Source: Verrucomicrobiaceae bacterium
GTDB lineage: Bacteria; Verrucomicrobiota; Verrucomicrobiia; Verrucomicrobiales; Verrucomicrobiaceae
Length of the DNA: 64,000 bases
Direction: 5' to 3'
Assembly: GCA_016795365.1 (NCBI GenBank)
Contig: JAEUHN010000054.1
Span: forward strand, 62,001-126,000
Of the stretch, positions 14,497-14,823 are shown piece after piece. How positions within the stretch are numbered: position 1 is the stretch's first letter; the number at the start of each line of letters is the position of its first letter. The notes under the pieces were generated by a model. The model saw only the letters and a list, made by a program, of their open reading frames with translations. It was not told the DNA's origin and searched no databases. The position numbers and the translations under genes are program-made.

Positions 14497-14557
14497 GCAG
14501 ATGAATGAGTGGCGGTGCGCCGCTCTCTGTGCGCAGTTCTGGCCGATGTGCAACGAG

Positions 14558-14599
14558 GTTCTCGGTTCTCGGTTCTCGGTTCTCGGTTCTCGGTTCTCG
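14558..14599. repeat. Six perfect tandem GTTCTCG heptamers
   Basis: Six exact head-to-tail GTTCTCG units fill 14558-14599, the least degenerate array in the window. They are the same unit as the left arm inside mnmA. No clear opposite arm follows, but AGTCTGCT (14613-14620), identical to the 8 bases preceding the right arm in mnmA, lies 13 bp downstream, followed by one GAACCTT-like unit. This could be an element that lost or never had its second arm. It is part of the 327-bp gene-free stretch 14497-14823. Confidence 0.9.
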
Positions 14600-14680
14600 G
14601 TTTGGGCGCGGGAGTCTGCTCACGGCGGAACCTTCGTTTGGTCGCCATCTGGACTGAGCGTCACATCTCTGCCGCATCGG

Positions 14681-14765
14681 TGCTGGAGTTCAGCCTTCAG
14701 GCTGCGGAAGCATAGCTTCCGAAAGCCCGCCCAACGCCACAGGCTAAAGCCTGAACTCCAGCGCC
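14681..14765. repeat. REP/BIME-like element with three nested hairpins
   Basis: Two 23-nt arms (14682-14704 and, inverted, 14740-14762) match at about 20 positions. Each arm is itself a hairpin: CAGCCT-TC-AGGCTG in the left arm and CAGGCT-TT-AGCCTG in the right, so the differences keep the base pairing. Between them is a third hairpin, CGGAAGC-ATA-GCTTCCG (14704-14720). The conserved GAGTTCAGGCTTTAGCCTG-type palindrome looks like a dispersed extragenic element, sitting between ppnP and the next gene. Confidence 0.75.
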
Positions 14766-14823
14766 ACATCGAGTGTCCACCTGCCTGAGACGACCCGGAG
14801 TGTTCGTGGTGGGCTGATCAGGA

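Follow-up and report, generated by a model that had tools for sequence, protein, structure and literature searches.

The intergenic element at positions 14685–14759 of the window, the 64,000-nucleotide stretch of Verrucomicrobiaceae DNA analysed here, is probably a REPIN/BIME-like heterodimer, namely an inherited, non-autonomous element of about 110 bases that a RAYT of the HYH clade recognised and copied, and whose copies are now relics. The element is repeated in its genome at near-fixed length, consists of two arm types whose hairpins covary across genomes, has related units flanking some HYH-clade RAYT genes elsewhere, and is present in the window but absent from the matching site of a sister species.

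The 75-base composite contains two 20-base units placed head to head. By direct reading and pattern match, the left core unit (14685–14704, + strand) carries the guide GGAGTT followed by the hairpin CAGCCT-TC-AGGCTG, and the right core unit (14740–14759, − strand) carries the same guide followed by CAGGCT-TT-AGCCTG. In covariance model R1, the full 44-base unit extends over 14668–14711 for the left arm (+ strand, C-type stem; 55.8 bits, G000:C41:76668-76711) and over 14733–14776 for the right arm (− strand, G-type stem; 54.4 bits, G000:C41:76733-76776), both window arms being among the 16 rows used to build this model. The two 14-base arm hairpins differ at three positions, comprising one swapped pair (C-G versus G-C) and one loop base. 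Direct reading and the folds also identified a middle hairpin, CGGAAGC-ATA-GCTTCCG, with a 7 bp stem at 14705–14721. A preliminary description of this site had reported outer arms that differ at three positions yet each form an internal hairpin, and our reading of the sequence agrees. The third hairpin that it placed centrally between the arms is present, but adjoins the left arm and is not exactly centred.

Folded as single-stranded DNA, positions 14675–14770 reached −28.2 kcal/mol versus −13.4 on average for shuffled sequences (z = −5.96), and none of 200 shuffles went as low. In the lowest fold the arms, whose outer 29 nt are 83% complementary, pair together as an interrupted long stem and the middle hairpin also forms; the separate small arm hairpins represent an alternative fold of the same stretch. 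Searching the window for the 20-base pattern with up to three mismatches yielded two matches, a number reached by 15 of 100 shuffles, although both real matches had no mismatches. A looser search, allowing four guides and any hairpin of 6 bp, found just the two units in the window, versus 2.45 in shuffled sequence. The significance of the element rests on pairing, recurrence and conservation, and not on any one hairpin.

The element lies between two − strand genes, downstream of a gene for a 411-aa protein and upstream of ppnP, whose product has a Ppnp (nucleoside phosphorylase) domain. A tandem array of the heptamer GGTTCTC adjoins it at 14555–14603. As GGTTCTC-like tracts match many places in the sister genome, this array looks like a dispersed minisatellite.

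We determined how often the unit occurs in its own genome (G000). The 20-base pattern GGAGTTCAGNCTNNAGNCTG had eight matches in the whole 6.74-Mb genome, and a reversed control had none. A blastn search gave 30 matches at E-values up to 1, the weakest of which are probably chance. The covariance model was built from 16 own units, which match by construction, and returned 20 matches at an E-value of 0.01, including 17 at 33 bits or more. These 17 strong arms fall at 11 places, and the short palindrome, intergenic in its window copy, is not the single-copy sequence that would have spoken against a REP-like element. The unit reaches past the 20-mer, with CGCATCGGTGCTGGAGTTCAGGCTTCAGCCTGCGGCG as its consensus in this genome, and its tag is GGAG apart from single mutations. 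Inverted arm pairs were found at six of the 11 places (the window element on contig C41, and C25, C11, C3, C7 and C51), with a guide-to-guide length of 75 bases in five of the six composites and 85 bases in C51. Single arms were present at C26, C34 and C1.

With the five 75-base composites oriented G arm left, their 35-base interiors had a mean agreement of 0.42, compared to 0.26 when their letters were shuffled, and none of 2000 shuffles scored as high; the C11 interior disagreed with the others (0.23–0.31). Most of the composites were therefore passed on and copied as single units. The middle hairpin was discarded as a conserved part of the element, as other composites do not have it.

Public genomes scanned for GGAGTTCAGGCTTNAGCCTG yielded at least 118 stretches. 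Among the matches listed, 59 of 118 came from one acidobacterial MAG (QHZE), and the others were titled Planctomycetes, Verrucomicrobia, Chloroflexales, Falkowbacteria, Bradyrhizobium and others. Together with the own and family loci, the listed scan loci contained at least 283 units and at least 99 inverted pairs according to a unit finder that required at least 5/6 stem pairs. Within the pairs of these listed loci, which span several phyla, the two stems differ in 87 of 99 and are the same in 12. QHZE contributed 56 of the 99 listed pairs, all with differing stems; outside QHZE, some stem differences are single decayed bases. This MAG holds at least 147 units (L053–L170), mostly as 52–54-base dimers. 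The commonest pair among the listed loci, and in the acidobacterial genome too, is the window's own combination of CAGGCT-TT-AGCCTG with CAGCCT-TC-AGGCTG. Asymmetry of the arms was rejected as a universal feature: ten of the 12 same-stem pairs come from the planctomycete MAG JACQFH, where they make up ten of its 12 listed pairs, and five of 22 RAYT loci with pairs had only identical arms.

Since the unit finder itself required at least 5/6 pairs, we retested pairing with partner arms picked by guide alone. In the listed loci, such a partner lay within 140 bases for 97 of 157 exact units, and at least 5/6 pairs formed in 94 of these 97. The 75 partners differing from the G arm represent 32 distinct genome-stem rows from 20 genomes, again among the listed loci, and formed 165 of 192 stem pairs there, whereas 10000 shuffles averaged 137 and never exceeded 155. 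Stems found with their complements include CAGCCT, CAAGCT, CAAACT, CACCCT and CCTCCT. Across the 16 own units, 91.7% of stem cells were paired and three pairs had changed on both sides, with 0 of 500 shuffles as high in cells or score, a statistic that is weaker than it appears as the rows are related. The covariation of the hairpins across the unit family is real.

At the window locus itself, the arm differences had been attributed to compensatory changes under selection on the single-stranded fold. This attribution is not supported: the differences reflect two inherited types and not recent compensation, given the agreeing interiors and the same G-arm/C-arm pair in the acidobacterial genome. 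Arms also decay at sites common with the sister species; for example, G000:C12 has a decayed hairpin and G003:C56 a decayed guide. Selection on the fold would be better placed at the step of copying by a transposase.

To relate the units to transposases, 30 Y1_Tnp loci were taken from ten unit-holding genomes. Units of the GGAGTTCA type flank the RAYT genes L203 (G071) and L188 (Falkowbacteria); in the Falkowbacteria MAG, GGAGTTCACCCTTTAGGGTG and GGAGTTCAGGCTTTAGCCTG units lie at either end of one RAYT gene, and a RAYT of G077 has several units on each side. We defined clade I by a profile of these RAYTs together with profile A2, which comprises 15 relatives. In this separation of clade I from weaker relatives, 56 of 57 clade-I loci scored at least 209 bits and the broken gene L235 about 151, with the rest at 136 or below. 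The motifs in the A2 alignment of 15 sequences are mostly NHYH (also NHFH and NQYH) and NY[IV]H, and L188 and L180 lie above the NCBIfam REP_Tyr_transpos cut-off.

Under a strict rule (GGAGT[TA]CA plus a perfect 6-bp hairpin, within 500 bases), units were found at 6 of 57 HYH-motif clade-I RAYT loci, all six two-sided, versus none of the remaining 69 Y1 loci (p = 0.007); five of the six were in genomes chosen for holding the unit, and one (L276) was in a set of 194 evenly drawn genomes. When degenerate units at an IS200-like gene on contig C13 of the own genome were included, this became 6 of 57 versus 1 of 69 (p = 0.046). Two non-clade Y1 loci have units beyond the 500-base rule, with two about 1.3 kb from L187 and one about 1.4 kb from L178. 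Under a loose rule, in which a hairpin follows GGAG, GTAG, GGTG or GGAC and which lets in some chance hits, 41 of 57 distinct clade-I loci had a guide and hairpin within 500 bases, 31 of them on both sides; for the 23 loci scoring 60–150 bits the numbers were 12 and 10. A cognate RAYT bordered by units of its own genome occurs at six loci elsewhere, and none was found in the genome of the window.

Guide type tracks RAYT phylogeny. Across a 76-RAYT tree, the label combining guide and stem required 16 changes, compared to 35.4 for shuffled labels, with none of 200 shuffles as low, and the GGAGT/CA label (six rows) three versus 5.9, under a narrower labelling rule that left 38 rows unlabelled and with near-copies favouring such clustering. 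At one RAYT locus with a GTAG guide (L279 in G192), tandem dimers show the same stem swap, every + unit being of the CCGCCT type and every − unit of the CCGGCT type.

The preliminary description had further proposed a REP/BIME-like element moved by a RAYT, and a search for the gene. The repeated inverted dimer, of a type that flanks RAYT genes elsewhere, supports the REP/BIME-like part of this proposal, but the own genome lacks a RAYT of the clade that carries such units. It has ten Y1_Tnp matches plus a RAYT at C46, none of which belongs to the unit-carrying clade I; the profile search of the 97.2%-complete assembly gave 121.7 bits at C46 as its best score. The copies therefore look orphaned. 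Of 68 genomes of the family, 48 had a match at an E-value of 1e-25 and 25 a clade-I hit, as counted from the match listing. The unit-rich QHZE and JACQFH MAGs had no strong clade-I hit either (best E-values 7e-12 and 1.5e-9). This argues against a simple one-to-one link, unless the missing hits are due to gaps or loss.

It seems unlikely that a transposase still present in the genome serves the unit family. One candidate is the IS200-like Y1 gene on C13 (L013), whose Y1 domain has one unit on each side at about 280 and 330 bases (55.0 and 33.3 bits). However, the hairpins of these units are imperfect, both units point in the same direction inside a larger direct duplication, and several other palindromes form a patchwork around the gene. 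The other candidate is a clade-II RAYT at C46 that carries the NHYH motif. It is the closest relative of clade I in the genome, but is flanked by the unlike hairpins GGACTGCGGCAGCCTGCTGCCGC and GGAGGCCAGCCTGCTGGCC. The C46 gene (L212, G000:C46:3583-4074) and its hairpins form a second, seemingly intact REPtron, and positions 1100–2500 of L013 (G000:C13) hold a dense mix of palindromes (e.g., AACTCC-GGAGTT and GCGGCTTCGCCGC types) with direct duplications of about 1 kb round the IS200-like gene. We infer instead that a clade-I RAYT once copied the unit family here and that the genome has since lost it. Its copies would now be relics, the window element probably being one without a job in its own genome.

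We next compared the site with the one same-genus genome, that of the sister species (G003), which has 12 covariance-model matches, nine reaching at least 33 bits. Both flanks of the window element align in G003 (at 90% and 92%), and a segment of about 103 bases (14668–14770) is absent at its matching site, the exact ends in this alignment being ambiguous due to direct copies. A direct repeat and the sister alignment identified one of these, a degenerate copy of the outer end of the right arm, at 14649–14667 (+ strand, CTGGACTGAGCGTCACATC), which is possibly a remnant of a tandem array. The second, the outer end of the right arm itself, lies at 14751–14771 in the sister alignment (+ strand, CTGAACTCCAGCGCCACATCG). 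Where the window has two direct copies, G003 keeps one CTGAACTCCCGCGTCACATCG, a half unit. The difference fits either slippage loss between direct repeats of an old tandem array or a gain beside an existing half unit. Loss is favoured because a 21-base match to the unit end would be unlikely in an empty target.

Comparison of the 11 own unit loci with eight from the sister genome gave alignments spanning the unit for C25, C26 and C34, and an alignment that covered a single arm for C51. The two C13 loci both matched the same repeat-rich region of the sister genome. No matching flank was found among the eight sister unit loci for C1, C11, C3, C7 and the window; at the C11 site, just bases 1–775 of 3020 aligned in one stretch. 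The C12 site is common with the sister species, with its hairpin decayed in the own genome. The sister unit at C171 was rejected as an unshared site, as a decayed own unit sits at the matching place and makes it a shared one. On this partial evidence, the unit family looks old and decaying in the own genome.

The site history also bears on whether the element could be the MITE of an ordinary DDE transposon, with the outer 29–36 bases as terminal inverted repeats and the inner hairpins incidental. Long outer inverted repeats, near-fixed length and an 11-base direct repeat (91%) flanking the insert are all compatible with a MITE. We nevertheless consider it very improbable: each arm keeps its own hairpin while the stems change, single arms occur at C26, C34 and C1, and the right-hand copy of the flanking repeat is part of the conserved end of the unit itself, so that the repeat is not a target duplication. 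Hardly any weight can be given to a local RNA-level element (a terminator or mRNA stabiliser) kept by selection between the 411-aa gene and ppnP: the fold is stable and same-strand genes lie on either side, as described for REPs in the available part of PMC3733652, but the sister species lacks the element at the same site, arms decay at shared sites, no terminator-like site was found at the window element, and an Rfam search of it returned two sub-threshold microRNA models alone (E-values 0.26 and 0.52).

A RAYT-copied heterodimer would work as follows. Two units, each of the guide GGAGT, a T and a 6-bp hairpin with a 2-nt loop, stand inverted head to head, and in the single-stranded state each arm would fold as its own hairpin. 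An HUH/tyrosine RAYT of the HYH clade may recognise guide and hairpin at both ends, cut at both ends and then copy or move the whole unit. As the stems differ, we propose that no single perfect long hairpin would form and that the ends would stay distinguishable.

The two-type design recurs in distant genomes. More tentatively, these units could belong to a REP/RAYT branch spanning several phyla in which GGAG replaces GTAG as the guide and which uses, as a rule, two different hairpins, often with one swapped stem pair. Such a branch might combine a guide/stem code with an arm asymmetry that marks the ends; the guide and first stem bases would change with the RAYT along the tree, making the recognition code readable. 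The frequent building of REP dimers from two different hairpins is described as unexplained in the available text of PMC3733652. Now that RAYTs flanked by such arms have been identified, two-end recognition is testable with defined enzyme and DNA pairs.

REPs and REPINs with RAYTs are an already known kind of element. The GTAG-tagged REPs and HH dimers described in the accessible part of PMC3733652, which occur in Verrucomicrobia (O. terrae), are, like the window unit, short palindromes with a 5' tetranucleotide tag, 6–9 bp stems and 2–3 base loops, TY among them. They also share with the window family inverted dimers with the tags outside, alternative complementary stem residues, and heterodimers. 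Such heterodimers are described for other REP families without an explanation, with protection from SbcCD-type cleavage as a suggestion (PMC3733652). The window tag is GGAG instead of GTAG or GTGG, and the degenerate tags given in that part of the source (GYAG, GYRG, GTRG, GTMG and GTGG) exclude it. As the tag also departs from the GT[AG]G described for canonical REPs in the portion of PMC6006769 available, we file the family as a variant and not as a canonical member. No GGAG-tagged REP family was found in the accessible literature on REP tags and heterodimers. Copy number differs as well, with 17 strong arms here versus the more than 100 copies usual for REPs according to the available part of PMC2817692.

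Among transposases, the clade-I RAYTs resemble TnpA_REP subclass 2.8 as described in the same portion of PMC6006769, with HYH and YIHxNP tyrosine motifs (a likeness by motif, from the A2 alignment of 15 sequences) and REPs beside the genes. Subclass 2.8 is described there from Cyanobacteria with GT[AG]G REPs, whereas clade-I RAYTs occur in Verrucomicrobia-like genomes, Falkowbacteria and others with GGAG, GTAG and GGTG. In the accessible text of PMC8266576, E. coli REPs are 37 nt long with a bulge and GTAG, whereas the window family has perfect 6-bp stems and differs in both tag and RAYT branch. The E. coli TnpA_REP recognises the tag plus hairpin on single-stranded DNA, and E. coli BIMEs with y and z REPs combine two non-identical inverted REPs as a unit, like the window element (PMC8266576).
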